DNA of 64,000 nt. Origin: Paracyclopina nana (Eukaryota; Arthropoda; Copepoda; Cyclopoida; Cyclopettidae). Position 1 is the stretch's first letter, and every line of letters begins with the position of its first letter. The notes beneath the pieces are model-generated. The model worked only from the letters and a program-made list of their open reading frames with translations, ran no database searches and was not told the origin of the DNA. The stretch is from the NCBI GenBank assembly GCA_019096065.1, contig JAGUCH010000007.1, forward strand, positions 2,626,501-2,690,500, written 5' to 3'. This document shows positions 8,528 to 62,230 of this stretch, piece after piece. The position numbers and the translations under genes were made by a program.

Positions 8528-8712
8528 TGTGAGGTTTCGTGAACCCTTTAGAATGTTGCGTTCGCGGTAAAAAAGGATAAATAAAGCAGTTCATTTTCCG
8601 CTATCACAACGACTACATGTCATTTATTTGAGTTCATCTCAAGTCTTGCAAAGGCCACACCTGGCCTTTGTGAGGCCTTTTAGTAGTCCTTAGCAGTGTT
8701 CTTGAACCATTA
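8528..8712 (+). other. Spacer between accessory ORF and envelope-like ORF
   Basis: There is no ORF here. It holds an AATAAA at about 8,580 in an A-rich stretch. In element 2 the accessory ORF is followed directly by the 3' LTR, so this spacer could be the remains of an LTR or of an env leader. I could not find a matching LTR to decide. Confidence 0.4.
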
Positions 8713-37292: not shown

Positions 37293-38449
37293 AAAGATGC
37301 TATTTGGAAATACTTTGACGTATACGTCGCCTGAATGCAAAAAGCCAGTGACTTTGCTGACATGTGAAGCTATTGATAGTGAATGCCCGGAACTAAAATA
37401 CATCATGAAAAAGATATTTGATGACGATACGCAAGGCTTGACGTTAGCAAACCCAGTAGAATTACTGACTGCAGACGAGCTACGAGCTAGAGACATCATA
37501 AGTAGCACTATCCACACTAACGAGAAAGGTCACAAGGCTATGAAAGTGCCATGGCGAAATCATCCGGATCCTCCAGATCTGCCAAATAACTATTGGCAAG
37601 TACTCACTTTTGAGCTGAAGCAGGAACAGAAACTGGGTCCTGAGCTCATGAAACAAGTAGATGATGCTATAGAAGAGATGATAGCTCACGGAGCTTTGAA
37701 ATTACTTCGTGATGACGAAGACAAGTTAGTGGGGTTCTATATACCACGAGTAATGGTAGTGAAGCTAGACAGGGCTTCTACCAAAGTTAGAGTTTGCATG
37801 GATGCAGCTTGGCCTTTTGGGGCCAAAAGAACTTCACTGAATTCCCAAGTTTTGACTGGTCAGAAGTTACAAGGCGATATTTGGGCTATATGGCTTCGAT
37901 TCCGGATGCGTCCAAAAGCTTACATAGCTGACGCTGTAAAAATGTTTCTAAACGTGCACTTACTGCCAGAAGACAGGAGATATCATAGACTTATACATAG
38001 GGGTCAAGCTTATGAATTATGGGTCTTTGGCAACGTGGCATCGCCGTATGCCGCGCTGTATACTATGAAGGAAATAGCAAAAGAAGGCAAGTTGCATCCT
38101 TTGACTGAGTACGTGTTCAACTCGTGCCTGTACATGGACGATATCATCTTCAGCTGCAACACCACAGAGGAAGCTCTGGCAGTCTACAATGATGTAAAAA
38201 ACGTACATGCAAAGTCGAAAATGGTTTTTAAAAAATGGGTCAGTTCAGACAGATAAAGACTGGCATCCATCGTTTGAGTTGAACTCGAACAATCCGGATG
38301 TGAAAGCCCTTGGAATCAAGTGGCAATCAAGCACTGACGAGATAACATTCAATCCGTTAAAGACGAGCCTCACAGATGATGATCTAAAAATAGTAACGAG
38401 GCGGTACATCGTCTCGATAGTAGCCCAAATATATGACCCTCACTTCTAA
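37243..38449 (+). pseudogene. BEL/Pao element 3: reverse transcriptase fragment
   Basis: The RT domain covers LPNNYWQVLTFELKQEQKL to the C motif. Motif A is YIADAVKMFLNV and motif C is LYMDDIIFS, so the polymerase Asp residues are present. A frameshift at about 38,240 moves the thumb region to another frame (from about 38,243, DVKALGIKWQSS). The reading stops at TAA 38,447 just after AQIYDP, where the inverted gag copy begins. RNase H, integrase and an LTR are absent. The fragment is dead but its RT active site is intact. Confidence 0.8.
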
Positions 38450-40480
38450 AAAAGTCTGCTGCTGCTCCAGCATAGTTGCCAACGTCGTTTCCATGGACTT
38501 TAGCTTGTCATTCACGTTCTTTTCTACCTTTTCTCTATCTCTTTTCTCGAAAAACCCATGCAGCAGTCCATGATGCGGGTTTTGACATTTCGTGCATTTC
38601 GGTGCTTTACATTCCATCCTTCGATGCTTCGAATCAATGCATCTCATGCACAGTCTTTTCTGAATGCACAGCTCATATTTGTCCTTTCCGGACATTCGGA
38701 TGAACTGCTTGCACTGCGGGGTCTTGTGATTTTCATGTCCGCAGACTTGACAGTCTTTTACGTCTAAGTTTCTGACTGCAGTGGACAGGCACGGTCCCAC
38801 TGCTTCTTCCTCATAGTCTGTGGAGTAGTCAGACGGGCTGTCTTCTTCTCCGGAAGCTTCGTTCGTGAGCAGTGTCACCGCTTTTTTCCTAGACTCTGAC
38901 TTGTCAGTCACCTCCTTTACTTTAGCTTCGTAGCTTGACATTCTCATCAGGGACAGTTTCCAGTCTATGAATTCCATGACTGAGTCCACCGAGTTTTCTA
39001 GCTTAGACAGCTTTATGTACTCCTCGTACCTGAGCTTTGATTGCTCTTTCCACTGCAGGACCCACGGGATGGCTGCGATGCCCATGATCGGGTTGCATTT
39101 AATTCTGGCCCCCTCCTCAGTGAAGAACTTAATTATTTCTAGCATGACTGCCTTGTATTCTTGTAGCGAATCCTTTTTAGTATGATCGAGGGGCTGCATT
39201 TTTGTGATTTTAGCCAACAAGAAACCTTGCCGGCCTTTTAAGTCTCCATAGACCTTGTCCAGTCTCTCAACCGCATTCGCGAGGTTCAACAAATTCCAAG
39301 GCTTAAAATTCTTTATTTCAATTTCAGGTTCACCTTCCAGGCTATCCCTGAGCAACATCAACTTGTTCGAGGGGGAGATACTCGTGTTCAAGATGACCCT
39401 GATGAAAAAGCAGTCCCTGAAGTCCTGGTATTCACCAATGTCTCCCGTGAACTTCATACGTGGAATGTCACTTTCTTTTGGCAGCTTGTCCTTCTTTGGA
39501 TCGTAGATCTGACTTAGCAAGAACATATGTAAATAGAGGTCTGACCAGTCGTCCAAGACCGCCTTTTCTGTTTTTGTGGATCTATAATCCGTTGTCCTAA
39601 GCGAGATGAATTCCTCTTCTGGCTCTGGACTTGGGTCCCTTCTAGGGCCCCCGCTTTGCAACCTGGGTGGTCTAGCAGGTCTGTTTTGGTCACCCAGGTT
39701 CTGTATTGGCGTGAAGTTTGGAGTTGAAGGCGGAGGAATCTCCCTTCTGGACAGCTCGTTGTCATTTCCTAGGAATTGACTGATCAGGCTTTGCACTGTC
39801 CCCGAGGGCTGCGGTGGGCGTGCCCCCCCTTCTTTCTGCCCTGACAGCCTTTTGCCGTCTGTCTGCTTGTTCCTGTTATCTAACAGTTGTTCAAGCGGGC
39901 CTTGTTGCTTCAGGCGGGCAATGAAGTCCTTTACTGTTTGATCAGCTTGATTCACCGTTTTTGTGATGACTGTGAGTCCAGTCTTTTTTGCAGGCTGCTC
40001 GCATTCATTCCAGATAGAGCGGCACTGCTCAGCGTATTCTCTTAGTACCTTGACGTTTCCATCCAGGATACCTTCAATCTTAGCTATACCTTCCGCGCTA
40101 ACCTCTTGTGTGCCAAAGTCTTGGATCATCAGCCTAATCTGACCCCCTAATGATTTTAGTTCGTCCAGAAGCTCTTCCGGGGTCTTTACCTTGGCAGCTT
40201 GATCAGAATGCACCCCATTCTGGTCGACCTGATCCTTCTTCCCCGCAGTTGCCTCTGCTGGCTTTTCCTGCGAATCCGGGGCTCTGAGAGCCTCCTTGGG
40301 TAGAATCAAGTTCTCTACCAGTGTCAGATTCATGCCCGTGATATTCGGATCCTCTGGCATGGAGCTTATCATATAGCTCGAATCCGCGAATGAGATCTGT
40401 TCCAGATCTGGCTCCGCCTGTAAACGTGCATTGTAAATGCGCAAAAGCTCCCTATACCAAAACCGCTTCCGGAGCTTCAA
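38445..40480 (-). pseudogene. BEL/Pao element 3: full-length gag on the opposite strand
   Basis: A long intact frame (about 698 codons; the last roughly 20 codons are antisense of the adjoining RT). The N-terminal region has a helical DELKSLGGQIRLMIQDF segment and a Gln/Pro-rich linker; then come the DUF1759-like domain, CQVCGHENHKTPQC, the CMRC..CTKC segment and a final coiled coil (VEKNVNDKLKSMETTLATML). The frame has no stop from 40,480, so this gag may still be translatable. The 5' LTR expected above 40,480 is not recognisable. Together with the plus-strand copy it forms an inverted duplication. Confidence 0.75.
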
Positions 40481-40566
40481 CCTGCTTCAACCCGCCTTGT
40501 TGGCCTCTCTGCTCGATGCCCAAGTGAGGGCTATTGGCCTCTCTGCTTTCCTCGGGTGATCGAGTT

Positions 40567-42420: not shown

Positions 42421-42519
42421 AAAAAACTCAGATTGCGTGCCTTGCCCAGCTTATTGAATGCACACAATCACCAAAATCAGCTCACCAAAAAAAAGCTATG
42501 TTCCCAACCCCAAATTACT

Positions 42520-43136
42520 CGTCCTCGTGTGCTCAGGAGGTCAATGACCTGTTTAAATTCTCGCGCGGAGTCAATGACCTGTTTAAATTCTCGCGCGCCC
42601 TCATTTCAGCGCTTTAATGCCGGCCGGCCAGGAAAATAAAATTTTCTAGCCAAATTTCTTGTCCTCATGTGCTCAGGGAGTCAATGACCTGTTTAAATTC
42701 TTGCGCGGGGTCAATGACCTGTTTAAATTCTCGCGCGCCCTTATTTCAGCGTTTTAATGCCGGCCAGCCGGGAAAAAACATTTTTCCAGCCAAATTTCTT
42801 GTCCTCATGTGCTCAGGGGGTCAATGACCTGTTTAAATTCTCGTGCGGGGTCAATGACCTGTTTTAATTCTCACGCGCCCTTATTTCAGCGTTTTAATGC
42901 CGGCCGGCCAGGAAAAACTTTTTTCTTGCCACAAAACTTGTCCTCATGTGCTCAGGGGGTCAATGACCTGTTTAAATTCTCGCGCAAGGTCAATGACCTG
43001 TTTAAATTCTCGCGCGCCCTTATTTCAGCGTTTTAATGCCGGCCGGCCAGGAAAAACTTTTTTCTTGCCACAAAACTTGTCCTCATGTGCTCAGGGGGTC
43101 AATGACCTGTTTAAATTCTCGCGCAGGGTCAATGAC
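42520..43136. repeat. 140-bp satellite, left part
   Basis: Tandem 139-140-bp units (for example starting at 42,661, 42,801, 42,940, 43,079). Each unit holds a duplicated GTCAATGACCTGTTTAAATT core, then TTTAATGCCGGCC and a poly-A/T-rich spacer. The array is cut at 43,136 by BEL/Pao element 2 and resumes at 59,104. Confidence 0.9.
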
Positions 43137-43362
43137 TGTTTGGGCTCCCGCCTATCTATTGTATTGTGACACTCGTATGTGAGCTCGACCTACTATTCGA
43201 TCCTTCATGCTTATGTTTTCGCTAGTATGATTTCGGATTTCACCTTGTGTTAGTTGAATAAATCTCGACTACTACATAGAAATCACCGTCGTGCCGGATT
43301 TTATGCATATCTCGACTTTATTATCATTTTAGTGCATCGACGACTCTCGTTAGATTCATACA
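43137..43362 (+). repeat. 5' LTR of element 2
   Basis: A 226-bp TG...CA repeat with AATAAA at 43,257, a short LTR typical of BEL/Pao. Its left edge abuts the ATGAC duplication in the 140-bp satellite. Confidence 0.95.
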
Positions 43363-43380
43363 TGGCGACCAACCGGGTTC
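43363..43380 (+). other. Primer-binding site of element 2
   Basis: TGGCGACCAACC begins directly after the CA of the 5' LTR and continues into CGGGTTCGA. Its complement would be a tRNA 3' end (...GGTCGCCA) including a TCGA-type T loop. I do not assign the tRNA species. Confidence 0.75.
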
Positions 43381-43583
43381 GAGGACTCACGCAAGAGATG
43401 AAAAGTGGATTCTGGCATTCTCTGGTGATCCGACATTTTTACTGAGACAGCTGACTCTAAAGTGATTTTAAGTGCTGTGACTCACGATTTTATCCTCAAC
43501 GGGGAGACAGTCAAGCCTCACGTTGAAGTCTATCCTTAACGGGGAGACAGTCAAGTCTCTCGTTAACGGGGAGACCAGCACTG
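43381..43583 (+). other. Leader of element 2 with three PPT-like repeats
   Basis: The untranslated leader carries GGGGAGAC at 43,501, 43,541 and 43,568, within longer direct repeats (AACGGGGAGACAGTCAAG twice). The same octamer forms the polypurine tract next to the 3' LTR. Confidence 0.7.
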
Positions 43584-45589
43584 GTGCCACGGATATACCA
43601 GTCTGGCAAGAAGAAGACTAAGAGTGGAAGAGCTGTCAGGCCTCCACTTAAGACTCACGGTGGAGATTTTGACATCTTGATTAAGAGAGCCAAAAAGTCA
43701 AGTGTCAAAGACAAGCAGCTACTGTCGGCTAGTGAAGCTGACAAGGACTGGGTATTTGACGAGATTTCGCTACTCTTCATGAACGACGAAGACGAGATCG
43801 TGGCCACTGGAGGAGAAGCTCAGCTACTAGGTTACGATACCCTCCTCAACAACGTCACAATGGCGTCATTGGATGGAAACATGCCGGCACCAGCCCACTC
43901 CAAAGACATGTGGATGGATGTCCTAAGAAACATCAAGGACACCATGGATAGCCACATTAAAGTCTTGGGTGAGAGATTGGATGCAGCCACATCACCAGAT
44001 TTGGCTGAGAGGATCAAAGCCCAAATCATAGGACTGAAGGCCGAGGTTACGGAAGATGTGGAGACATGTAGAGGCCTTGTCATGGAGGCCGATCGCAAAG
44101 ACTTCAAATATCAAGTCTCCCTAATCCACTACCAGTTGGAGACTTATGTAGTCAGAGCCTCAAGGGTTGTCAAGGACAAAAGACTCAGTGAATTGGACAA
44201 CCCTACCACACCGACTCCAGCAGCAGCTTCAGGTGCTGCTGCGGAGACTGTGGTTGCCAAGGCGGACTCTCAACATGAAGAGGGGCTTCAATTGGATGAC
44301 GATATCCTCGCCAACTCAGCGGAGAAAGTCTTGGAAGAATTGGATGTAGTGGTGTGTCAACTCAAAAAAGCTGATAAGTTGAGAAGAACTCTGATGGTGG
44401 GCACAGGAGCTTACAAAGACCAGGTGACTTTGATGGAAAATGCCAACAAGAGGAGGAAAGAACTGGAGAATATTGTTCAGTGCATGGGTGAAGATGATCG
44501 CAAAAAGTTCAACATGCAAAGTGTGGTCCTCACTAGCAAAGAAATCGACAACCTCATGGCATTCTCGGATCCAGACCACCATAGGAATCGGCCACGGGCC
44601 AATGGTGGAACGACGCCGAATCAAGAAAAAAATGACCATGATAGCTCTACCTTCGGCAGGAGGGATTTCAACTTGGGCATGACCACGGTTACGTTGTCGA
44701 GCGAGCTATATGAAAAGAAGATCCAGGAGGAGCAGTCATATTTGGCCCAGGACACTATCATCGACCAAGTAAGAAGACGGGCTCGGGCCGATATCGACTG
44801 GAATGATTTATATGAAGGCAAAAATCTCTCCCAGTTCTATGACCCGAACGTGCCCAGGGACTTCATCAGGGACGGCGTCAAGCCAATGTACTTCAATGGC
44901 ATGGGTGAAGTCACCTATAGAGACTTCAAGGAATATGTGCACGCTGGTATTGTCATGAAGAGAAACATGAACTGGTTTGAGAAGTGCATTAAACTCAAAA
45001 ACTTGTGCACTGGGGCAGTGAAAATCAAAGTGGCGAGGTGCAGCTTGTCAAAGGATGGTTTCATCGAAGCCCTTCAAAAATTGGACGGGGACTACCTGGC
45101 TCATAGAGATGAAGCCGAGGAAGTGATCCATGACTTGCTCATCAAGATGAGAGAAAGACCACCCATCTCTGTGAAAGACCTGAACTCTGTGGAAGCAGCC
45201 CTGGTTATCATAGAGGAGATCATTGATTGCAATGGACGTGCGGGCAATGACCTGACTAATGGTGAAGCCTCAATTTTGTCCAACATCAGGATGGATAACA
45301 TCACGACCAGGGATTACAGAGATTTTAAGGAAAAGAAGCTCCAGTTGAGGAATTCTCTCAGGCTCTTCATTACTTGGGCTAGAGTCCGAATCAGAGATCA
45401 TCTGAGGACAAAGAGAACTGATACTTTGCTCAAGAATCTCACCAGGTCCTTCGATGAGATGGAAGTCAGTGAGGCGGAGCCCTGCCAATGGAGAAGAAAT
45501 GACAAATACCGAGCAAAGACAACAAGATCAAGGAGGCCACGGGGTTTGTGGATGACGACTCTGATGAGTTTGACTCCAGCGATGATTAA
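43584..45589 (+). CDS. Element 2 Gag
   Basis: The frame is open from GTG 43,584; the first in-frame ATG is about 43,778, so the true start is uncertain. It is a helical, charged protein with acidic N-terminal half, coiled-coil segments, then the BEL capsid-like domain (IDWNDLYEGKNLSQFYDP, YFNGMGEVTYRDFKEYV, then FIEALQKLDGDYLAHRDEAEE). Near the end the sensible frame changes from 3 to 2: the acidic end FVDDDSDEFDSSDD is read in frame 2 and stops at TAA 45,587. The pol frame begins with the very next codon, so gag-pol expression would need stop readthrough, or the TAA is a mutation. Virus-like capsid protein by family. Confidence 0.7.
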
Positions 45590-46369
45590 GACGTGGTGGC
45601 ACTGGCAAGGGAAAAGCAACAATGTCTCGTATGCCAACAGCTAGGCCACAGGGGCTTTGAATGCACCAATTGGGGCAAGCAAAATATCAAAGATGTCGCT
45701 CGAAGGATGGAAAACGAGAAGCTGTGCAAGCAATGCCTCCAAGGAAGACATGCTATGGATAAGTGCAAATCCACGGAGAGGTGTGACAAGTGTGGTAGCG
45801 TGGAACATCACACCAGGCTGCACCAAGGCCAATCAACAAACACATCCATGCTGACTACCAGCTCACAAGCTCAGAGTGGACTAAAGAAGCAACTCACTGA
45901 CTGTTTGATGAATGCGGTCAGGCTCCTCAATGATGATGCCACTCTACTCACCCAGGATCACGGGTGTCCTGGGGAGCTGAGCGGCGACGAGGACAATGTT
46001 GAGATTGTTGGATTTGCGAGTGATGTATCGAGGTCATGGATGACGGTGCCAGTGGAAATTTCCACTATGATGGATTTTGGAAAAGCAGTTGAAACAAATG
46101 CACTTTTGGATACAGGATCCAGCGTGACATTGCTACAACCCCAATTGGCTAAAGTCATGGGAGCTAAGGGCAAGAGGAAGAGCATGGCAGTACAGGTTGT
46201 CGGCAACAATCAGGTGGTGAAGCAACCTTCTTTCAAGGGCACCATGTACATCAGAGCCAGAGGCACCGTGGAGCCGATCTTCCAGCTCAAGTTTAGCACT
46301 TTCAACCTGCCCATCGCAATCCAACCAGTGGACCCCCGAATGACATTAAAGAAAAATATGTGGAGCTGA
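45590..46369 (+). CDS. Element 2 zinc knuckles and retropepsin-like protease
   Basis: Two Cys/His motifs, CLVCQQLGHRGFEC (CCHC) and CDKCGSVEHHTRLH, surround a CKQCLQGRHAMDKC motif near residues 5-85. The aspartic protease (DUF1758-like) follows with its active site LLDTGSSVTLL intact at about nt 46,105. It overlaps the RT frame by a few bases with a -1 shift at about 46,365, a mutation in the normally continuous pol frame. Confidence 0.85.
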   Translation, partial: DVVALAREKQQCLVCQQLGHRGFECTNWGKQNIKDVARRMENEKLCKQCLQGRHAMDKCKSTERCDKCGSVEHHTRLHQGQSTNTSMLTTSSQAQSGLKKQLTDCLMNAVRLLNDDATLLTQDHGCPGELSGDEDNVEIVGFASDVSRSWMTVPVEISTMMDFGKAVETNALLDTGSSVTLLQPQLAKVMGAKGKRKSMAVQVVGNNQVVKQPSFKGTMYIRARGTVEPIFQLKFSTFNLPIAIQPVDPRMTLKKNMWS

Positions 46370-47520
46370 AGGAGATTGACTTTCCTAGACCAGTTGAGGG
46401 TGACCTGGGATTGCTCATTGGCTTCGACAACATGCAGCTGATGATAAGTGAAAAAGACACATATGTCAAAGGGGGCCCCTTGGTGAGGAAAACTCCACTT
46501 GGATGGGCTATGCTATTCCACCCAAAGACTGGCGGAGTCGAAGCTACAGCCTTTGTCAGTGATTGGAAGCAATTCAACCAGTGCCAGGCTATTTGTGATT
46601 TGGAAATGAGGTACCTTCTGGACAGACAGTATGGACTCGAATCAATTGGCATTGACAGAGCAGAACAACCCTCAACGAGACTGACCTTGGCGGAGGAGAT
46701 AGCTTTGGCTAAGATGAAGACTACACTCAAGAGATTGCCGAGTGGACTGTATGAGGTTGGCATTCCCTTTAAGAGTGATACGCCGCAGTTGCCCAATAAC
46801 TTTAAACAGTGCTGGGCCATACAACAAAAGCTGGACAAGAAACACAAGAAAGACCCAAATGTGGCCAAGGCAGTGGTCGACACAATGGCCAAGTACGAGC
46901 GACTGGGAATCATTGAGCCGGTCCCAGCTGCAGAGGTTGGGACTAGATATTTCCTACCAGTCTTTTGTGTACCCAAAGAAGGAAGTGAGACAACGAAGTA
47001 TAGGTTTGTCTACAATGCCAAGCAAAATTTTGAGGGCACTTCAATCAACGAGCAGATGTACACTGGGCCGAACTACCTGGATGACATTTACGACACGATG
47101 ATACAATTTCGAGTTGGAGAAGTGGCAGTTGTCGGTGACATTGAGAAAATGTACTTGATGATAGCCTTGCCGGAAGAAGATAGGAAGTATGTACGCATTG
47201 TGGTCAATGGACGACAGATGCAGTTCTGCCGATGGCCCTTTGGCCTTAGAGCAGCACCTAGTGTTGCAAACTTTGTTGTCAAGCATCACATCAAGCAGTA
47301 TGGATCCCCACTATTGAAAAAGAAGGCCAGGGTCTACATGGACGATTTGATCGTGGCCTTTGAGACCTTGGAAGAGGCCAAGAAGGTCGTGGAGGAGGTT
47401 GTGCCGTTGATGAGCTCGTGTGGAATAGAGTTAAGAAAGTTTGTCTCTAACAGACCTGAAGTACTACAAGGCATTGACAAACAAAGGCTGGGCAAGGCCA
47501 TGGTGGGGGGGGGCAGCTGA
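46360..47520 (+). CDS. Element 2 reverse transcriptase
   Basis: The RT region starts with the link from the protease (GLLIGFDNMQLM) and a linker. Motifs include LPVFCVPKEGS, motif A VVGDIEKMYLMI, the WPFGLRAAPS box and catalytic motif C YMDDLIVAF (about nt 47,334). The frame is lost at a run of G at 47,502-47,511; the thumb region continues in frame 2 (EEPVVHSTLGLKWDP). The active-site Asp residues are all present. Confidence 0.85.
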   Translation: MELKEIDFPRPVEGDLGLLIGFDNMQLMISEKDTYVKGGPLVRKTPLGWAMLFHPKTGGVEATAFVSDWKQFNQCQAICDLEMRYLLDRQYGLESIGIDRAEQPSTRLTLAEEIALAKMKTTLKRLPSGLYEVGIPFKSDTPQLPNNFKQCWAIQQKLDKKHKKDPNVAKAVVDTMAKYERLGIIEPVPAAEVGTRYFLPVFCVPKEGSETTKYRFVYNAKQNFEGTSINEQMYTGPNYLDDIYDTMIQFRVGEVAVVGDIEKMYLMIALPEEDRKYVRIVVNGRQMQFCRWPFGLRAAPSVANFVVKHHIKQYGSPLLKKKARVYMDDLIVAFETLEEAKKVVEEVVPLMSSCGIELRKFVSNRPEVLQGIDKQRLGKAMVGGGS

Positions 47521-49810
47521 AGAACCAGTTGTGCACTCGACCCTTGGACTCAAATGGGACCCCATGAATGACTACATCGGATACACATTGTCCAAGGTGG
47601 AACAGAAGGGCATCACCAAGAGGATTATGTCAAGCCAAATAGCTTCGGTCTATGACCCGCTCGGAGCCTTGACACCGTGCTTGCTAAAGGCAAGGAAAGC
47701 TCTGCAACTTGCACATAAAGCCGACAAGAAACTAGCTTGGGACGATGACCTGACGAAGAGTGATCACCCATTAGCCTTGGAGTCAGTCAAGTTGTGGAGA
47801 CAGTGGCAGAGCGAGTTTGACGAGATGACTTTGGTCCAATATCCACGAATGGTAGCACCCAGAATTGACAAAAACACAATTTTGCACATGTGTAGCGATG
47901 GATCTGACTTGGCCTTTGCGACAACGGCCCACATTACCTCATCTAATGTATCACACAAGCCAGGTTGGTTAACAACAAAAGCCAGGATCCAGGGGATCAA
48001 GCAAAGAACAATTCCAGAAGTCGAACTGGCAGGAGCCCTGTTGAGTGCCAGACTATCGAATAGGCTGATAAACTTGCTGTTCATGGGCAGAGAAGCAGTT
48101 TGGTACTGGGTCGACAATACTTCAGTCATTTGTTGGATACGGAAGGCTGGAGTTGACAGGTCAGTGTATGTCAGAAATAGAGCAATCGAAATTTCAGACA
48201 CTACAATAGTGGAGCGTTGGAATCACATCCCCACTGAGAAGAATTCTTCTGACGTCGCGACTAGAGGCTGCACTGGCTCTCAGCTCGCTCAACACACCAC
48301 TTATTGGACTGGACCAGATTACTTTGGTGAAGATATTACGACTTGGAAGTTGATGAAGCTCAAAGTAACCGAAGAAGAACTGGCAGGAACTGGACAGATT
48401 TCTCTCATGAGCAAAGACCTCGGGTGTCATTGCCATGTTGAAATCAATCAGTTAGGGATCATTCAAGACCATGCAGTCAAGCCTGGGGATCCACATAGAC
48501 TGCAGGAAAGCCAGGAAATCTTTGTGCAAATGAGACAAGTACTGCACAGCCGGAATGTGGGTCGTTGGTCGATCCTGGTCAGGGCGATCACGAGAGCATG
48601 CTTGAGCTGGAAAGTAATCAAGTGTGAGCAAGAGCTTCCGCTGATGGAAATGGCGGAGGTGGTGAGAAGACTATTGATTCTGGGTCAGTGGCTGAAGATG
48701 GAGAAGGAGTTGAGAAAATTCTTGGACACTAATAAGTGGCCACAGTGTGCAGAGAAAAATCTCAAGCTGATGGTGGCCAATGATGGACTAGTCAGAGTGC
48801 ACAGTCGCCTGTACAATCAGGACTACGTGGCCCAATCTCAACAATATCCAATCATGATGACAGAAGCGTGGCCATTTGTACTGTATATGTGGACTCTGCA
48901 CATTACCACTGGACATGTGAGAAACGACGATCTTTGGTACCAAGCATTGAAAGTATTTGCTGGAGCGGCAGTGAAGAAAATAGCCAGGAGAATATCAAGT
49001 GAGTGTGTTCAATGCAGAAAGCTTCATTCTCCGATGTCAAAGCAATTGATGGGCTCGCTGCCTAATTTGGAATTGACTAACATTAAGCCCTGCTCGAAGC
49101 TGGCAATTGACTTCACAGGAGTTCAATATGTCAGGTTCTTCCGCAAGAGAATCCTAGTGTATATCTTGGTAGCAGTGTGTCTCCAGACTAAGGTGGCCAC
49201 CTTGGAGATCACCATTGGACAAAACACAGAAGCGGTGGTCATGGCGCTGTCAAGGATTGCCGCAAGGAGGGGCCCGATTGAAGAATGTTACTCAGACAAT
49301 GGCGGGAGCTTTATTAAGGTCAAGAGGCTGCTGACAAAGGAGGAGAAGAAACAAGCAGTAATGAAGCCGCAGAATGTCATATACTCAGTGGACGAGATTG
49401 ACTGGGAAAAAGTGAGAATTGACACAGCCAGATACGTGAGAAAGTGGACGATGAATGCTCCAAGAGATCATGAAGCCAACGGCCAAGTGGAGTCCTTTGT
49501 ACGCTTAGCAAAAAGGGCGGTCAAAGATCACATTGACCAAGGAGAGGTTGACCTGGAAATATTTAGAACATGGGTAGCCATGGTGGAAAATGTGGTCAAC
49601 TCTAGACCAATAGCTGTGGTGGAGCAAAGTGGTGGAGAAAAAGTGATCCTTACACCAAACCACCTCATTGTCGGCAGATTGGGCGACACTGGAGTTTTTT
49701 CCACGGACAGTGAATTAGACTATGATGTGCACGCCCTTGCAGAGAGGATCGAAAGCTTTGAAAAAACCTTGACGAAGTACTACTTGGCGACAATGCAAGA
49801 GAGAGGAAAA
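47502..49810 (+). CDS. Element 2 RNase H and integrase, interrupted at its 3' end
   Basis: Frame 2 encodes the RT thumb, the A17/RNase H-like region (MCSDGSDLAF, then PEVELAGALLSARL, WVDNTSVICW and NSSDVATRG), the integrase zinc domain (HITTGH...CVQCRK) and the DDE core (AIDFTGVQY; CYSDNGGSF; HEANGQVESFVRLAK), so all catalytic acids are there. At 49,811 the gene is cut by a DNA transposon. The missing C-terminal domain resumes at 55,257. Removing 5,446 bp brings both parts into the same reading frame. Confidence 0.85.
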
Positions 49811-50227
49811 GGGGATGAGTATATTCTCAGCAGTAGGGTTATTTGGGAGCCCTGTGCATATAGTTTGAGCTATCAACGTGAAATTTGGCATGAGCATTCC
49901 TCTCCTCATCGCGCATGATGTTTATTAGCGGCACTTTTTGATTTTCCGCCAAATGACAGACTTCCATTTTTCTCCGCTCCCTGATGATCAAATGAGCTGA
50001 ATTTTTGTGGGTGACTCTCATTTTGCAAGGGCTACAACTTTTATTAATGACTTTTTTCCAAATTCAAACTTCAAAGGGGACTTGTTTAAAAGCGTTTTGC
50101 CTATTTTTGTGCAATCTCCTACAGGCCTCAACCAAATGAGCTGAATTTTTTAGTGTGGTCCTAATTTTACATTCCCCACAACTTTTATTAGTGTTATTTT
50201 TGCGCTAAGTAACTTTTTAGGGTGGCT
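49811..50227 (+). repeat. Left terminal inverted repeat
   Basis: Pairs with 54,839-55,256; the match ends at AACTTTTTAGGGTGGCT. Within it the motif AAATGAGCTGAATTTTT occurs twice, about 140 bp apart. Confidence 0.9.
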
Positions 50228-50339
50228 CTTTTTGGATACTTTTTGTTTATTAGTCATATTGCCAATAAGCCTGGGAGAAATAAGCTGAATTTTTAGCAAG
50301 CCCATGAGTCCAGTTTCACAAAAAATTGCAAATTAATAT

Positions 50340-51565
50340 AAATATATTAATTTCTTGGGACATAAAAACGTGCCGTAGCCATATTATATTTACTTATTGC
50401 CCATTGCAAATTATCCTATATCCTATTGTCACATAGCACAATGGCCCATTGCAAATTATCCAATAGCATATTGTCACATAGGAATTTGTCACATAGGAAT
50501 TTGTCTCATAGCCATTTGTCACATAGCATATTGTTTCATAGCAATTTGTCTCCTTAAGAATTTGTCTCCATAAGAATTTGTCTCATAGCCATTTTTCACA
50601 CAGCAATTTTTTTCATAGCAATTTATCAAATACCATATTGCTCTATTGCAAATGGTCTCATAGTATAGTACTGTTCCATAACAAGTTGTCTCATAGGATC
50701 TTGTGGGCTCCTACCTTAGGATCTACTACGGACCTGGACTAGAAACTACTGTGACGGACCCGGACTAGCATCTACTACGGACCCGTAATAGAATCTACTG
50801 CCACAACATACCAGGAATAGAAACTACTGTGACAGAACCGGAATAGGATCTACTGAGTAACATAACAGGAATAGCATCTACAACAGACCTTTACTTACGT
50901 ACTACAAAGACAGAACAGGAATAGAACTTACGAGACTGAAATTAGGCCAGCAAAGTTAGTAAATGCATCAGGTAGATAATTCAGCTAAGTAATTAAGGTC
51001 ATGACAAATAAGATATACTGAAGTATGCAACAAGTCCTCTAAGTCTTGGACATGTTTTTTAGTCATTTGAGTACTGTGGCTTAAAAAGTCATAGCCTAAA
51101 ATAGGCAAGTCCTGAAGATTGAGGCAAGTCTTAAAGTTTGAGGCAAGTCCAGAAGTTTTGGCCAAGTCCTGAAGTTAAAGGCAAGTCCTGAAGTTTGAGG
51201 CAAGTCCCAAAGTTTCAGCCAAGTATTAAAGTTCAGGCCAAATCTTGGTGCATTGTCTAAGTCCTGAAGTATCAGCTAGGTTGTGAAGTCAATTGCATTT
51301 CACTTATAGTTTCAACAAATTCAAAGTATTTGGTCGGTCTAAATTCTAGTAAGGTATGTATTGGCAACAGTTTACATTCCTAGTCTGGTTAAAATTGCTG
51401 TTCCTGGTCTGTCCCAAAAGTTTCTATTCCTGTACTGTCTCAGTAGTTCCTATTCCTGCTCGTCATTGAGTAGATTCTATTCAAGTATTGTCACAGTAGT
51501 TCCTATTCCACTCTGTCTTGGTGTAGATTCTACTCCGGTACCGTCACAGTAGTTTCTAGGGTATA
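50340..51565. repeat. Degenerate short tandem repeats, left interior
   Basis: About 50,380-50,700 consists of loose 15-20-bp repeats of CATAGCAATTTGTCTCATAG type. 50,700-50,950 holds repeats of ATAGAAACTACTGTGAC type, and their reverse complement fills 51,361-51,565. Between them, at about 51,100-51,260, are 19-bp repeats of GGCAAGTCCTGAAGTTTGA. The arrangement is fold-back. No gene. Confidence 0.8.
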
Positions 51566-52196
51566 TCTGTTGAAATCCGTGCCGTTATATTCTGTTCCGT
51601 TATATTCTGTTCCGTAAAAATCCGTTCCGTGAAAATCCGTTCAGTCAAAATCATCTCAATTAAAAACCATTTAATGTATTTTAATCAACTTTGCCTTATA
51701 GTAGAAATAATATTTGTTTCATCCATGTATGTCAAATCTTGATTTTTCTGTTTTTTACCAGAATTTTTGGATAGAACTTGGCTGCTATGAAGAGCAGGGA
51801 TAAAATCAGTAGTGCTTTCTGGCAATGAATCAATGCAAGGCCTTTGTACCTGAAGTGGTTGAATTGACTGGTTATGGGGGCTTAAAAACCTAGACTCACT
51901 GTAAGTGTATGTGGGAACCTCTAAAGAGACCAGCCATCTTGTTTGTCCAGCCTTTTTCCAGAAGCATGACAACAAAAGAGTTATGCTGTTGTGTGCGCAT
52001 CTTTTGGTGATTGCTGATGCGCAATCACTGTAGCAACTTTTAAAATTGAACTCACCAAACCTTCTAAAGAAAAATACTATCCATATGTACGTATTTGAGG
52101 ATTACCGGAGATTTGCGGGGCTGATTATCACGGAACGGATTTTTACGGAATGGAATATAACTGCACGGATTTTTGCGGACACGGATTTGAACAGTA
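51566..52196. mobile_element. Nested MITE-like element with Tc-rich inverted ends
   Basis: The left end (CTGTTGAAATCCGTG, followed by repeats of TTCCGTTATATTCTG) and the right end (reverse complement CTGTTCAAATCCGTG, then CGCAAAAATCCGTG) form imperfect inverted repeats of about 90 bp. The interior is unique, about 450 bp, with no ORF of note. It lies inside the 5.4-kb transposon. Confidence 0.6.
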
Positions 52197-52259
52197 CATT
52201 TGTTTCTAGCACAGTATGTCCTGGTAGATCCATCCTATTCTGGCTTCCCGATCTTGTTA

Positions 52260-53860
52260 CATAGCATGATAATTAGTAATGAGACAATATGCTATGAAAC
52301 CATATGCTATACTGATTGAGTCATCAAAACCGGGTAAGCACTTTGGCCAATTTGGCTGGTTTATTTAGTGCAACAGTGCAGCCAGCGCATTCTGTTTCTC
52401 ATGGCTCAATGGGTATGCAATGAGACAAAATGCTATGAGACAATATGCTATACTACTATAAGCTGTGTGACAATATACATTTGCTATTGAACAATTTGCT
52501 GTGCTATGTGTTAATATGCTATGTGATAATATGCTATGTGACAATATGCAATGTGACCATATGGTATATGACAAATCCCTTTTGAACATATTAGATTGTT
52601 CCATAGCCAATGAGGTAACATGGCTATATTGTTTTTACTAAAGAAAGCAAATTGTCACAAAGGCAATTGTCACATAGCATATTGTCACATAAAACAATGG
52701 CCCCTTGCAAATTGTCACATAGAAAATAGTCTCATAGTTTATTGTCACATAGCTTATTGTCTCATTGCATATTGTCTCATAGCAAATTGTCCAAAAGTCA
52801 ATGTCTCATAGCACAAGGGCTCATAGCATTTTGTCTATAGCTTATAGGAAACAGTAAGCAGACCCCATATCTAGCCTAGCGACTAATTACGTAAGTTTTT
52901 GGACGTCAAATTGCGACCCAAGTTAAGATGTCCGCGACTGTTAGGTTAGCTTTTCTCTTGATTATATTTGGCAAGGTGATATTTTAGCATGGCTTCACTT
53001 GTTACTGCCATAAAATGGTTACACTTCATTATCATTTGACCATATTTTGAGGCTTACATTGCTTGAAATTTCAATTTTTAGTGAAATTCAAGGCTGGCTT
53101 AAGGGCTGGCTTTTGGGTAAGCCAAGGCACCAATTAAAGTGCTTCCAGAATGGTTATGCTTATATAAAGTGACTGTATTGCTAGATGAAATTGGCTACTT
53201 TTGGCCTGAAATCAAAATCCAAGCCTTGTAACACTTATAAGGCACGGGTCAACTTCTTGTGCGCGCTTCTACGTCACCGCATCTGAACTGACGTCCGAAA
53301 ATGTTGCTTCCCCTTTCCTATTGTCAAATGGCAGATTATCTCATATCCTATTGTCTCATGGCATATTGTCACATGGTAAATTGCCCCATAGCATATTGTC
53401 ACATATGATTACATCTCATTTTGCTCCAAAGCAAATGGTCTCATAGCAATTTGTCTCATAGCAGTTTGTCACATAGAATATTGCTCCATGGAAAATTGTC
53501 TCATAGGATTTTGTCTCATAGTGTGACAATTTGTTTATGAGACAATTTACTAAGGGACAATTTGCTATAAGACAATTTGGTATGGAAGAATCTGCTAGAT
53601 GACTTTATGCTATGAGACAATATTGTATGAGAAAATATGCTATGTGACAATATGCTATGTGACAATATGCTATGTGACAATATGCTATGTGACAAATGCC
53701 TATGTGACAAATTGCTATGTGACAATTTGCTATGAGACCAAATGATATAGGACAAAATACTATGAGACCATTTGCTATGGGACAATACGCTATGTGACGG
53801 TATGCCATGTTACATTGAGCATAGGCCAATCTAGCAGGGTATATTACTGGATGCTTCAAG
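52260..53860. repeat. Degenerate short tandem repeats, right interior
   Basis: Same CATAGC(A/T)(A/T)TTGTC(T/A)C family as at 50,400 but in alternating orientation: reverse at 52,265-52,600, forward at 52,630-52,840 and 53,320-53,520, reverse at 53,520-53,830. Open frames here read as LSHSI-type repeats and are not proteins. 52,850-53,320 is unique sequence. Confidence 0.8.
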
Positions 53861-54838
53861 AATGTTTGGTTTAGGGCTTAAAGCTACTTATAATGGGACA
53901 TTATGATATGTGACAATTAAGACACCTGCAATGATCAAAAGTATGGGCTTTTTTGGTGGAGCTTGACACATGGGCATAGCCCTCTTTATTATCAGAACAT
54001 ACTTGATGGTGGCTGAACTTAAGTGACATCACTATTGTTGACATAGTGTGTACTGTGTAACAGATTTTTTATCCTTTCCTAGGCCCTTTAGCCAAGAATC
54101 CTGTAATGGACAGTCAGTTCCATACAATCTGCACTCAAATTTGATTGACTACCCTACTTAAATGTGGATGGCAAGGCTTTTTGATCTGTTAATGATGATT
54201 TTTGAAATCTTAAAACTTAAAAGTTATTGATAAGAACAATTTCACAAATAAATGAATTGCTAGCAGAGCCATCTCTGAACTGTTTACTATGTTAGATTAG
54301 ACGCCAATGTCCTGCCCAAACTCTTTCTTTTCTAAGTTTGGGAGCCAGCCTACAAATGTAACCCAATCAAATTTAATGAACAAGCATGTACCACATAGCT
54401 AACTTTTTCTGAACTGATCTCATCCTTGGCACTTCAAAAAATACAAGCAGCTGATTTCAGCTAATCATAAGAATGTTTGAATTACCACTTTATAATTGTG
54501 ACTCAAAAGAGCAATTTGGATGGCTGATGTTGTGTGTTTGGTTTGATTCAAGGCTGGCCTTCATAGTCATGTTTTGACCTTTTTCTGAAATGACCTCATT
54601 CTTAGCCCCTCAAAAAGAGCAAGCAGCTGATTTCAGGTGATCAAAATTATATTTGAATTACTGCTTTTCAAAAATGGCTCTTTTACTTTCATCAACAGGT
54701 GCCCCAAGAATTCATCAGGTGAAAAAAAGTTGAAATACATATTGTAGGGAAATGCAAAAATAATCAGAATAAATGAAATATGAGCCTGATTGCACTGTAG
54801 TGCACTGCAGGGCAGTTATAGCCAAAATATCCTTACAC
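53861..54838. other. Unique non-coding interior of the 5.4-kb transposon
   Basis: No ORF or repeat of note, apart from two related blocks around TGACCTCATTCTTAGCCC and TGATCTCATCCTTGGCAC (about 54,415 and 54,590). Confidence 0.5.
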
Positions 54839-55256
54839 AGCCACCCTAAAAAGTTACTTAGCGCAAAAATAACACTAATAAAAGTTGTTGAGAAAACAAA
54901 GTTAGGGCCAGGCTAAAAAAATTCAGCTCATTTGGTTGAGTCCTGTTGGAGATAACACAAAAATACGAAAAATGTCCATAAACAAGTCCCCTTGGAAGTC
55001 CGAATTTGGAAAAAAGTCATTAATAAAAGTTGTAGCCCTTGCAAAATGAGAGTCACCCACAAAAATTCAGCTCATTTGATCATCAGGGAGCGGAGAAAAA
55101 TGGAAGTCTGTCATTTGGCGGAAAATCAAAAAGTGCCGCTAATAAACATCATGCGCGATGAGGAGAGGAATGCTCGTACCAAATTTCAGGTTGATAGCTC
55201 AAACTATATGCACAGGGCTCCCAAATAACCCTACTGCTGAGAATATACTCATCCCC
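54839..55256 (-). repeat. Right terminal inverted repeat
   Basis: Reverse complement partner of 49,811-50,227, ending in CATCCCC at 55,256. Confidence 0.9.
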
Positions 55257-55484
55257 TTTTTAGCTATGACCGACAATATCCAAGAAAATGACACGGTTGT
55301 GGTGGCCAAAGAAGATTTAAAAATCAAGCGTGGAAAATGGACAATTGGAAGAGTAATGAAAGCAATCAAGAGCAACGATGGACTTGTGCGCAAAGTGGTC
55401 GTTAAACGTCGTCATGGCATCATAGAACGTGGAGTCAGGCAGTTAAGTCCACTGCCAAGTTTGCCCTTCATCAAACTCGACTAA
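55257..55484 (+). CDS. Element 2 pol C-terminal domain (DUF5641-like), separated from pol
   Basis: Resumes the pol frame after the transposon: DNIQENDTVVVAKED, then KRGKWTIGRVMKAIKSNDGLVRKVVV and a short tail to TAA 55,482. This is the SH3-like pol C-terminus found after integrase in BEL/Pao; the equivalent in element 1 is at about 4,600-4,800. Confidence 0.8.
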   Translation, partial: FLAMTDNIQENDTVVVAKEDLKIKRGKWTIGRVMKAIKSNDGLVRKVVVKRRHGIIERGVRQLSPLPSLPFIKLD

Positions 55485-55665: not shown

Positions 55666-58600
55666 GTGCTCAAAATGACGAACAAAAGAAGACGATCGGC
55701 GAGCAAGAAAAGCTCCACGTCGGGCGACGAGTCACCCCGAAGGGGCCCCAGGTGTCCCTCTGGGAGAAAATCGGCCCGAACAGTGGTTTTTGAGAGTGAC
55801 GAAGAAGAGGCTCGACGACGCCTCAACATCACGGTGGCCAATACCGGCGAGCAAGCGGGCGAGATTGGCGAATTACCGCGCCAAGGCATGGCGAGCCTGG
55901 TCGACCTCAACGAGGCCACGGAAGCCGGTGAAATTATGAACGCGACAGGCATCGAGTACGTCCATTTGTTCTCCGCCACCAAGGGAGCCTTGAAGACCAC
56001 TTTTTTGACGTTGTTCAAGGATCCTGGCTGTCTCATCATGGGCGACCAATTCAACTGGGGCAGGAGGACGCCCACAGATAGTCGACCGGGCGATAAGCGC
56101 AGAAAAGCACGCAGGCAAGATATCCACCGCTGTTTTCGTAGCTATATTCTTGGAGCCAGGGGATTATCATTGCTGGAGGCCATAATGTTCTCGTATGGTC
56201 ACATCTTTCTCACCATCATGGAAATCAAAAAGGAGGTGAACGATGCCGAAATGGATGAGCCACTCAGCACAGTCAATAGAGCCAGGTGCTTCGAGATCGC
56301 CAAATTGCTCAGCAATTATATTATCAATTCGGCCGAGAGCGAAGAACGTGGCGTTTTGCAGTCATTGGAGACCACGGCCATGGTCGTACCACAAATTGTG
56401 AGGCTATATGAAGAGGGCCAAGTGGAGAACACATTGGTCATTGACAGGGTTGGCATGAGGCTGTCAGCTGCGGAGCTCAAGATGATTACCGAAAGGGACC
56501 AGCTGCCTCCCACGGTCTTGGCTGATAACTTGAGACTTCTGGATTCGATGAACGATGCAGTAAGAGAAGCAGAAGAAGCGAGGGCAATGGTCCTTGCCAA
56601 CCTACTCAAGTTGCCTAGGACTCAGCTAGCTTCAACCGAGCCCGACCTCAGGTGTCGGGCCGGCGAAGCGAGTGTCAAGATCAGGGAGGCAACAAGTGAC
56701 GAAGAGGCTGCCATGGAGGTCGGTGAACAACAAGTTGTAGAAACTCAAGCCGCCCAAACTCCAGTTGAGGTCAAAGTTGCCGAGACCCCGCAGGAGGACA
56801 AGATCCTGGATGAGATGGAAGCCTTACTTGCTTCTGATGAGGAGGAGGCTAACACTGAGCAGCTTGATGAGCCGGTGGCCTCAACCTCAGCTCAAGCTGA
56901 TGAGCGAGAAGCAGCAGCGGCACTCCCAGATGTCAAGGATGATGACAGTGATTGGGGGCGGGCGATGGATGCCATCAGGAGCAAAGAGAAGGCACCAGAG
57001 GCAGTGGCTCCACCAGTAATTGTTGACACGCACCCGGTAGCCACTTGTAGCTTTGGAGTGCAGGTCAAAGAAGAATGGATAGCCGCGGACATGGTCACTG
57101 CCACTCCTCGGGTGATCCCTGCTGGCATGGAAGAAGAGTTGGAAGAAGAAGACAACAGCAAGAGGCTGATGGTGGTTCACCACTTGCCAACTGCTGGCTA
57201 TGATGCGATCACTCCAGATGAAGAGTACCTGCACAAGTTTGATCGCAAAACTCATCGTTGCCCTGACATTCGAGTTGGTAAGATTATGCAGGTTGCCTTC
57301 GACCCCATGAAGAAGAAGTGCGACTTCATGGCGTGAGCCGTCAAGCAGAATGTTCTACCCGCTGATTGCATTGAGGTCACTGCTGCCGTCGCCCCGGTTG
57401 TGACGGTGCAGGATGTCGAATTGCGATCAAGGATGGGTGCCAGATCAAAGTATGATCTGGTCACGAAAAACTTGCGCACCACTCATGTGTATGGCCTCAC
57501 GAAGTCTTACAACAACTGGACGAGCAACGATTGGGATGAGATCGACTACAGGTTGACGTCTCGCAACTTTTATTCCAACATCGAACGCTACCGCATGATG
57601 ACGATCGATCAAGAAGGATTTCAGGACAAGCTTCGTAATGCCTGTGCCAAAGCATACCTGCCCACGGTGAGCCAATACAAGCATGCCTCTGCCTACATCC
57701 ATATGGGCAGCCCTGAAGGTATCGCACTTGGCATCAGAGTTGCATTTGTGGGGCCAAGATTCTTGGGCGTGGCTGTACCTGAAAAAATCAAGAAGCTATT
57801 GGAATCGGAAAAAATATTCAAGCTTGGCTTTGGCATACAGGGCGACTTGCAAGACTTCGGTGAAATGGGCATCATGATCCGCAATTGGGTCGACGTGGGC
57901 CATTGTAACCTGTTGCTCAACCCTGCGGCCAAGGTCGGCAAGTGGGAGATGCTGAACTTCTTGGGCATCAAGCACACCATCAAGAAACCCAACTTTGCCA
58001 TCGACAACTACTCAGGTTTCACTGATGAGATGTCCCAAGAAGTTGTCAGGTATGATAGAGTCGACCAATTTGCCCCGTTTGCTGGCATCTTTCGCGTGGC
58101 ATCCCTTATCGCCAAAGCTGAAAACATGGGCAACAATGATAATGTCTACCCTTATGTCGTCGTGCTGCTGTCACTTCTTAGCCACCGCCCAGTGACCATT
58201 CGAGGTCAGAAGATGAGCACAATTGCGAGCCTCCTCCCAGACCTCGGGTGTCAGGGAGAGGCTGCAAGACTGCTCAGGGAAGAGTTCGGGGCTTACAACA
58301 ACTTTAAGCAAGTTGTGCAGTGATGGCATCAAGTTGGGCTGATTTTCCCTGCCACGATTGGGCTTTTTCCCAGTGCCTCGGCCGAACTAGTCAAAGACCT
58401 TGAGTTCAAGTTCGGCGCCCAAATGCATGAGTGGCACCTGCCTCATGTTGTGTCCTCCCATATTGATTGTGTGCTGGGCATTAGTGGCGTCTTGGAACCT
58501 AAAGACCTCCGGCTGTACCCACATGCATGCTTGGTGTGCGGGAGCTTTGGCCACGCTGCAGCGGACTGCAAGAAGACGAATACTTGCCTCAACATTCTAT

Positions 58601-58807
58601 GTGGGCCCAGTGACGTGTGATGATTGTTCGAAGTGTGGCAGCCGAGGGCACTCGGCAGAGCACCATGGTCGGTTCGACTTAGTGCAATTGCTTTTGGCTA
58701 CTCGATTGGCGTGCCTGCAACATGTTGCTTATGCCAAAGTGATGGACAAGTCTGGCCGCAGTCTTATCCGCCCCATCAAAGAGGGAATTCGCCCCTTCAG
58801 GTGCTAA
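55666..58807 (+). pseudogene. Element 2 accessory ORF: DEDDy exonuclease-like domain plus zinc knuckles
   Basis: Frame 1 runs from about 55,666 (ATG 55,675) through TGA 57,334 and TGA 58,321, then shifts to frame 2 at about 58,590 and ends at TAA 58,805. The N-terminal part is basic/Ser-rich, then globular (LFSATKGALKTTFLTLF), then long, acidic and Glu/Ala-rich. The region after the first TGA, numbered from ATG 57,400, has MMTIDQEGF (Asp70, Glu72), a hydrophobic strand, PEKIKKLLES, GFGIQGDLQDF (Asp149), VDVGHCNLL and RYDRVDQFA (Tyr218, Asp222). Those spacings fit a DEDDy 3'-5' exonuclease of the WRN/EXD2 type. It ends with CLVCGSFGHAAADC and CSKCGSRGHSAEHH. The exonuclease reading is my inference. 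The whole ORF lies between pol and the 3' LTR. Confidence 0.65.
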
Positions 58808-58877: not shown

Positions 58878-59103
58878 TGTTTGGGCTCCCGCCTATCTAT
58901 TGTATTGTGACACTCTTATGTGAGCTCGACCTACTATTCGATCCTTCATGTTTATGTTTACGCTAGTACGATTTCGGATTTCACCTTGTGTTAGTTGAAT
59001 AAATCTCGACTACTACATAGAAATCACCGTCGTGCCGGATTTTATGCATATCTCGACTTAATTATCGTTTTAGTGCATCGACGACTCTCGTTAGATTCAT
59101 ACA
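58878..59103 (+). repeat. 3' LTR of element 2
   Basis: 226 bp, same ends as the 5' LTR, AATAAA at 58,998. It is followed by the ATGAC target duplication. Confidence 0.95.
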
Positions 59104-59448
59104 ATGACCTGTTTAAATTCTCGCGCGCCCTCTATTCAGTGCTTTAATGCTGGCCCGCCAGGAAAAAACCTTTTTCTAGCCAAATTTCTTGTCCTCATGT
59201 GCTCAAGGGGTCAATGACCTGTTTAAATTCTCGCACGGGGTCAATGACCTGTTTAAATTCTCTCGCGCCCTCTATTCAGCGCTTTAATGCCGGCCCGCCA
59301 GGAAAAAACCTTTTTCTAGCCAAATTTCTTTTCCTCATGTGCTCAGGGGGTCAATGACCTGTTTAAATTCTTGCGCGGGGTCAATGACCTGTTTAAATTC
59401 TCTCGCGCCCTCTATTCAGCGCTTTAATGCCGGCCCGCCAGGAAAAAA
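59104..59448. repeat. 140-bp satellite, right part
   Basis: Continues the array that was cut at 43,136, with the same GTCAATGACCTGTTTAAATT core; unit starts at about 59,191 and 59,330. Confidence 0.9.
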
Positions 59449-59900
59449 CTTGACCAAGTCAAGAATTTCGCGCATTCTTAGCAGTTATGGATTAGCATAA
59501 TGCGATGCGCAAGTTTTTGCATTTGCGAATTCAAAATGAGGCAAAAGTTTGACTTTGCCTCACATTGTGAGTCAAGTTACCTCAAATTAACAGCTGTGAC
59601 TGACTTTTGACTCACAATTGACCAAGTCAAGAATTTCGCGCATTCTTAGCAGTTATGGGAGTAGTATAACGCGATGCGCTAGTTTTTGCATTTGCGAATT
59701 CAAAATGAGGCAAAAGTTTGACTTTGCCTCACATTATGAGTCAAGTAACCTCAAATTAACAGCTGTCATTGACTTTTTGACTCACAATTGACCGAGTCAA
59801 GAATTTCGCGCATTCTCAGCCGTTCTGGAGTAGTATAACGCGATGCGCTAGTTTTTGCATTTGCGAATTCAAAATGAGGCAAAACTATGAGTCAAGTTGC
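59449..59900. repeat. 170-bp satellite
   Basis: Nearly three units of about 169 bp starting at 59,449, 59,618 and 59,788. Each begins TTGACCAAGTCAAGAATTTC and contains AAAATGAGGCAAAAGTTTGA. Confidence 0.85.
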
Positions 59901-61438: not shown

Positions 61439-62230
61439 ATGACAACACCAATCTGCTGTAATTTTACCTTCATCTTGCTGGCCTTCTTTATGTACTCATA
61501 CTGGGTACTATTCAATGAGTTGGCTCAAGCAGCTGTGATCCAGGGAGCGCCACCAATGAGCCGGACAGCCGACCTCTACACCCCCGATGCCAAGGTCACG
61601 TCCTTCACGACTTACAACTGTGCGCACCCCGACGCAATCCACGAGGCCATCGACCTAAGTCAGCCAGAGCTGTGAGAGGACATTAGGAGTGCGTACCAAG
61701 CCCCGATCAACATCACGGTCCAGGTACTGCAAACAGCCTCCACCTTGTCTATCAAGGCCTTCCGGTGCTGGGTGCACTTGTCCAGACAGGTGACTAGGTG
61801 CAGGTACGAGAGCATCAGTTACGGCAGCCAGATGACGGACGTCAACAGGCCCTACTTGGTGACCCCACAAGCTTGCCGAGAGGCCGCCGAAAAACATTAC
61901 CTGATCGTGGAAAACAAGAAAGTGGAGGTGGCGCTAAACAACTCCAAGGGAGGCTTGGACATGGACCACAAGTGTACCACCACCACCTTCACTAGCGGCT
62001 GCATGACTTTCTATAAGTCATACGAGACCACTACGATCCATGCCTTGCCTTAGTCGTACCCATCTATGGGAAGCTGAACACGGCCAACGGGCTTACAAGC
62101 CCAGGTGGACGTGCTGGCTCGACAGAACGAGTCGATGCACAATTACCTCATGACGGTCCTGCCGCTGCTACGGTGCCTTCGGCTACGTCCACGCCTTTGA
62201 AACCTATCCCGAAAGTTGCCCTCGGGGGGT
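61439..62230 (+). pseudogene. Envelope-like glycoprotein, internally deleted copy
   Basis: ATG 61,439 opens a frame with a signal-peptide-like hydrophobic stretch (FILLAFFMYSYWVLF), then a Cys-containing ectodomain start. TGA 61,673 interrupts the frame, which continues unchanged to KGGLDMDHKCTTTTF and KSYETTTIHAL. After a one-base shift at about 62,047 the sequence jumps from the ectodomain (near 62,090) directly to the coiled-coil tail VDVLARQNESMHNY, a loss of roughly 490 codons relative to the copy at 8,713-10,788. Its N-terminus supplies the part missing there, so the two copies are complementary decay products. Not functional. Confidence 0.65.

Follow-up and report, generated by a model that had tools for sequence, protein, structure and literature searches.

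DEDDy 3'-5' exonucleases are already known as cargo of retroelements. In the available text of Rodriguez et al. 2017 (PMC5408684), RNase D-like DEDDy proteins are encoded by third open reading frames (ORF3s) in the Vesta and Juno long terminal repeat (LTR) families of bdelloid rotifers and also in Athena Penelope-like elements; the families that bear them are mostly without a bona fide env gene, the motif is given as DEED, a Cys-His-Cys motif is present in Vesta2 and Vesta5, and 3'-end processing is suggested as a role. The accessible portions of two 2019 papers count a DnaQ-like exonuclease among the accessory domains of LTR elements, citing Rodriguez et al. 2017 among others (PMC6338049), and mention DEDDy exonucleases in Terminons (PMC6431247, a review). 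Here we analyze an ORF3 of this kind in element 2, a BEL/Pao LTR retrotransposon in a 64,000-nucleotide stretch of DNA (the window) of the copepod Paracyclopina nana; the window is positions 2626501-2690500 of one contig (JAGUCH010000007.1) of the 91.95 Mb, 10-contig genome that we searched. TTAGG arrays in this genome point to an arthropod as the probable host. A first-pass annotation of the window, made from its letters alone, had regarded such a gene as undescribed in BEL/Pao elements. Our literature searches, whose coverage was incomplete, found no BEL/Pao element with such an exonuclease ORF, and BEL and Pao are absent as whole words from the text of PMC5408684, so to this extent the claim of novelty stands; it must be narrowed in that a 2017 paper had already described DEDDy ORF3s of other LTR elements and of Penelope-like elements (PMC5408684, available text). 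What is new is the BEL/Pao carrier, and the DEDDy ORF3 cargo itself was known from other retroelements.

The ORF3 of element 2 has the following parts (positions are those of the window):

55675 to 58807, plus strand: ORF3, whole, from its first ATG (the frame opens at 55633)
55921 to 56610, plus strand: conserved N-terminal domain (from the 20-row alignment A3)
57472 to 58209, plus strand: predicted DEDDy 3'-5' exonuclease domain
57607 to 57615, plus strand: catalytic DxE, Asp90 and Glu92 (23/23 rows)
57844 to 57846, plus strand: catalytic Asp169 of motif II (23/23 rows; pairs with the Asp of WRN GIEGD)
58051 to 58065, plus strand: catalytic YxxxD of motif III, Tyr238 and Asp242 (23/23 rows)
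58528 to 58569, plus strand: first zinc knuckle, CX2CX4HX4C
58625 to 58666, plus strand: last zinc knuckle, CX2CX4HX4H, in a different frame in the window copy

Two TGAs interrupt the window copy of the gene, at 57334-57336 and at 58321-58323, and its reading frame shifts somewhere in the stretch from about 58570 to 58625. The stretch between the two TGAs (57337-58323, open in frame 1) carries IDQEGF, GFGIQGDLQDF, VDVGHC and RYDRVDQFA in that order, just as had been reported from the letters, and the ORF proposed there is real, but it is the C-terminal part of the larger ORF3 and does not begin after the first TGA. The first TGA does not delimit a gene, since the sister copies L002/L009 and L010 read through it and have a single stop-free frame across the matching stretch, 727 and 1094 amino acids long, respectively. 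The two TGAs and the frame change therefore look like decay of the window copy. To judge from its sister copies, an intact ORF3 protein would have roughly 1000-1200 residues and consist of the N-terminal domain, the exonuclease domain and the zinc knuckles.

ORF3 proteins of two types, groups A (that of element 2) and B (below), were found in this genome. Protein searches with the two types gave at least 85 and at least 112 matches, respectively, of which 30 each were read in detail. Group A is represented by alignment A1, which uses 23 of 25 rows (L015 and L016 were omitted as near copies of L014; L011, which is the window itself, L029, L030-L032 and L034 had been set aside beforehand as duplicate, short or partial). 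All 23 rows, window copy included, keep the DxE, the motif II Asp and the YxxxD unchanged at sequence identities down to 30%, and the predicted structure model, compared by Foldseek, shows an RNase H-like exonuclease fold and no other fold. Because the catalytic residues are invariant and the model has this fold, the motif set is beyond chance. The catalytic set read by the first-pass annotation needs one correction, in that the Asp of VDVGH is not among the four acids (4 of the 23 rows have Glu there); the DxE, motif II Asp and YxxxD were correctly named, and they are indeed kept among the group A sister copies, group B having lost part of them. In the PDB alignment to WRN, the GIQGD Asp stands opposite the GIEGD Asp and YDRVD opposite the YAATD stretch. 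Fifteen of the 23 rows match Pfam family DNA_pol_A_exo1 (PF01612) with E values of 1 or less, the best being 3.4e-5, and two genomic copies pass the cut-off of this family with 27.7 and 25.3 bits. We are very confident that ORF3 is a DEDDy-fold gene of a BEL element.

The element around the gene is made up as follows:

43132 to 43136, unstranded: target-site duplication ATGAC, left copy
43137 to 43362, plus strand: 5' LTR, 226 bp, TG...CA (blastn between the element ends)
43363 to 43380, plus strand: putative primer-binding site abutting the 5' LTR (by sequence reading)
43527 to 46369, plus strand: gag region, two overlapping open pieces with a knuckle triplet and an aspartyl protease (Asp_protease_2, 5.8e-6)
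46297 to 49806, plus strand: pol, two open pieces ahead of the insert, with reverse transcriptase, Pao peptidase (Peptidase_A17) and integrase core
49807 to 55260, unstranded: DNA-transposon-like insert of 5.4 kb that splits pol just ahead of DUF5641
55269 to 55454, plus strand: DUF5641, the C-terminal part of BEL/Pao pol (2.2e-9, above the Pfam cut-off)
58878 to 59103, plus strand: 3' LTR, 226 bp
59104 to 59108, unstranded: target-site duplication ATGAC, right copy

Element 2 is a BEL/Pao LTR retrotransposon, because a gag with protease, a reverse transcriptase, a Pao peptidase, an integrase core and DUF5641 lie between its LTRs. The Pfam values for pol are 2.4e-11 for RVT_1, 6.4e-25 for Peptidase_A17 and 1.2e-5 for rve (the last under its own cut-off), and the two LTRs, flanked by the ATGAC duplication, differ by 6 mismatches in 226 (blastn). 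Both the family and the place that had been assigned to the gene are thereby borne out: ORF3 is an extra gene between the pol stop (55482-55484) and the 3' LTR. The Pfam matches of ORF3 and of the other scanned pieces of element 2, a scan that covered pieces outside the insert, include no env family. The insert has terminal inverted repeats of 437 bp that are 92.7% identical, and a 15-bp tandem repeat occurs in blocks inside it. Element 2 itself sits in a 140-bp tandem-repeat array (42510-43136 and 59104-59449). Another gag-like gene is present in the window in two copies, 35888-36883 and 38384-40486, which share long near-identical stretches on opposite strands; DUF1759 was found in the 35888-36883 copy (the Pfam scan covered this first copy).

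The above observations place one copy of ORF3 inside a BEL/Pao element, and is the gene a regular part of such elements? The matches to the two ORF3 types merge into at least 139 places, many of which have open frames of 1000-1440 amino acids with no stops. In at least 97 of the 139, DUF5641 precedes ORF3 on its own strand at no more than 8 kb (median 1947 bp), and in 2 it lies downstream; random placement gave a mean of 1.3 and a maximum of 6 in 200 trials. The Pao peptidase lies within 9 kb upstream in at least 76 of the 139 and downstream in 1. When the 24 places below 600 bp are set aside, at least 100 of the 115 longer ones have a BEL pol marker upstream, DUF5641 in 81 and the Pao peptidase in 19 of the 34 others. 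In the reverse direction, ORF3 was found downstream of 95 of the best 150 of 229 DUF5641 candidates and 76 of the best 150 of 243 Pao peptidase candidates. Of the best 68 of 381 env-like glycoprotein candidates, 1 follows an ORF3 place within 9 kb, and not one of these 68 follows any of the best 150 of 243 Pao peptidase candidates within that distance. Four matches (L030, L031, L032 and L007) are confined to the C-terminal part of ORF3; in L032 the gag and protease frame continues into that part, and this copy resembles an internal-deletion derivative. A possible BEL cluster lies at G000:C4:8462783-8480420, where one strand carries three ORF3 places along with two DUF5641 matches in less than 18 kb. 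Genes for a Monjiviricetes-type fusion glycoprotein are also present in this genome (at least 68 matches, mostly stop-free and seldom close to ORF3), and the window holds two fragments of such genes, at 8674-9699 (Pfam 1.9e-25) and 61676-62053 (1.6e-7).

Group B is represented in the window by the ORF3 of a second element, element 1:

6113 to 8527, plus strand: ORF3 of element 1, group B, incomplete catalytic set, behind its own integrase and DUF5641

The group B alignment A2 has 24 of 28 rows (L049, L060, L063 and L065 were omitted; L039, which is the window itself, L056 and L067 had been set aside earlier), and hhalign joins it to group A at 99.5% (E 2.2e-23). The two groups split with full support in an unrooted tree in which one long branch is flagged. 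In the hhalign columns no group B row (0/24) has the complete catalytic set: the first Asp is present in 0/24, its Glu in 6/24 and the motif II acid in 21/24, and the YxxxD columns have Tyr in 18/24, the last Asp in 1/24 and Glu in its stead in 18/24. The group B exonuclease domain is probably inactive, because the first catalytic Asp is missing; since the motif II acid, the Tyr and a Glu for the last Asp are mostly kept, this inactivity is something we infer. The ratio of nonsynonymous to synonymous substitution rates (dN/dS) is 0.039-0.073 in six usable group A pairs, some of which are not independent of each other; two usable group B pairs give 0 and 0.043. Usable pairs are those with dS of 0.02-1.5, namely 6 of 276 in group A and 2 of 300 in group B; one further group A pair is identical and the remainder fall outside this range. 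In the pairs that allow measurement, ORF3 is under purifying selection.

The window copy had been credited with two zinc knuckles, but the sister copies mostly have three. Among the group A frames examined, CX2CX4HX4C and CX2CX4HX4H are present in 24/24 each and a middle knuckle, CX3-5CX4HX4C, in 22/24; the corresponding group B values are 0/28 for the first, 28/28 for the middle and 27/28 for the last. The gag of element 2 has a triplet of two CX2CX4HX4C and one CX2CX4HX4H. The N-terminal domain (alignment A3, 20 of 22 rows, L015 and L016 omitted) has an AlphaFold pLDDT of 69 overall, with block means of 77-95 for residues 1-140, and its fold went unrecognised, Foldseek giving no match at E below 2.4.

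We propose the following function for the gene. ORF3 belongs, as an accessory gene in the place of env, to a large BEL/Pao lineage. Its zinc knuckles would keep the protein bound to RNA and cDNA of the element itself, inside the particle or next to it, where the exonuclease would trim free 3' ends of cDNA or RNA ahead of integration. Nucleic-acid binding would be the core function of both groups, and trimming would be specific to group A. Since the fold and knuckles are kept in both groups, binding of element RNA or cDNA appears to be the likeliest common function, and 3'-end trimming by group A is likely on the evidence of the alignments, in which its catalytic set never varies. We favor the 3' ends of the element itself as the site of action for two reasons: the knuckles of ORF3 follow a pattern similar to that in gag, and the LTR is directly abutted by the putative primer-binding site, so that stray cDNA 3' nucleotides could hinder integration. 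Taken as a whole, an accessory BEL/Pao ORF3 with knuckle-guided trimming of its own 3' ends is the account we think somewhat more probable than its negation; the particular role, trimming of the 3' ends of the element's own nucleic acid, is offered only tentatively. A bolder version is quite improbable: that throughout this lineage env has yielded its place to a nucleocapsid-like 3'-5' exonuclease, carried in the particle, by which cDNA ends are finished or proofread. This would make it the first retroelement replication complex with a proofreading-type activity, and the binding-only sister branch would be a natural control.

Several observations weigh against parts of this picture. The window copy matches PF01612 only at E 0.15 (12.3 bits; the cut-off is 23.6) and, in the PDB, the exonuclease of WRN at E 0.059, and even the 23-row profile reaches only E 0.012 against the PDB; the Foldseek TM-scores are modest (query-normalised 0.26-0.41 among the best 50 rows), and the top-ranked EXD2 rows have an rmsd of about 18-21. 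The group A values come from 23 aligned rows out of 30 fetched of the 85 matches. Fifteen of the 115 longer ORF3 places are without either BEL marker among the matches listed; the window copy is among them despite having both domains, so the marker lists are incomplete. In addition, 55 of the best 150 of 229 DUF5641 candidates are without a recognised ORF3. The likeness of the gag and ORF3 knuckles is a pattern match within a short Cys/His-rich stretch. Finally, group B has persisted although its catalytic set is incomplete, and full catalysis is therefore not essential to every element.

The alternative that fares best is a carrier role like that of Egalitarian, in which the main task of the domain would be to bind structured RNA so that it can be transported or packaged, with hydrolysis secondary or vestigial. 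We consider this rather unlikely, since in group A all five catalytic residues are invariant while the rest of the protein drops to 30% identity, a constancy that binding alone does not need, and group B, whose inactivity we infer, retains part of the set. Nearly as well placed, and also unlikely, is a counter-defence in which the exonuclease destroys host small RNAs or double-stranded RNA that silence the element; the gag-like knuckles point instead to the element's own nucleic acid, and group B survives despite its incomplete set. It is very improbable that ORF3 is a mere passenger, an exonuclease that was captured but does nothing for the element: the window copy is certainly broken by two TGAs and a frame change, but other copies are open and stop-free over at least 1000 amino acids, dN/dS is low in the usable pairs of both groups, and two deep branches have both been retained. 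That ORF3 is a host gene or another element's gene merely adjoining a BEL element might be read from the 15 of 115 longer places without a listed marker, but this is contradicted for the window copy, which lies inside the LTRs and target-site duplication, and by the BEL pol markers upstream of at least 100 of the 115, and its probability is next to nil.

How does ORF3 compare with known systems? WRN, EXD2, NrnC/diDNase, RNase D, Rrp6 and Nibbler carry the DEDDy set, and ORF3 is like them in this set and in a common predicted fold; it is unlike the WRN/EXD2-type enzymes in that it is encoded by a retroelement and fused to an N-terminal domain and zinc knuckles, and its identity to them in structural alignments is about 8-19%. 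Egalitarian, a host RNA-transport protein and BicD adaptor, falls in the same fold group (Foldseek 2.2e-4); ORF3 differs from it in being retroelement-encoded, and the likeness here is one of predicted fold. In some BEL/Pao-type elements the ORF that follows pol is reportedly a captured chuvirus-like glycoprotein env, the third ORF of the element, and the hookworm Atlas virus is likewise said to be of BEL/Pao nature with a captured env in that position; unlike in these env-bearing elements, the third ORF here encodes an exonuclease-fold protein. We know of no retroelement that uses a 3'-5' exonuclease of its own as a routine part of replication. In the present case the DEDDy cargo is under selection, which raises the choice between cDNA polishing, anti-silencing and RNA binding only, and the presence of full-set and incomplete-set branches in one genome makes the question of function testable. 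The closest parallels are the ORF3s of Vesta, Juno and Athena (PMC5408684, available text), which, like this gene, follow pol as third ORFs and encode a DEDDy exonuclease of the RNase D kind. It differs from them, in a comparison made by description only, in its BEL/Pao carrier and in the motif DEDD rather than their DEED; it also has a CCHC/CCHC/CCHH triplet, against the Cys-His-Cys motif of Vesta2 and Vesta5, as well as a conserved N-terminal domain and an incomplete-set sister branch. Together with the rotifer cases, DEDDy cargo is thus found in LTR elements as unlike as those of the BEL/Pao and Vesta/Juno types.
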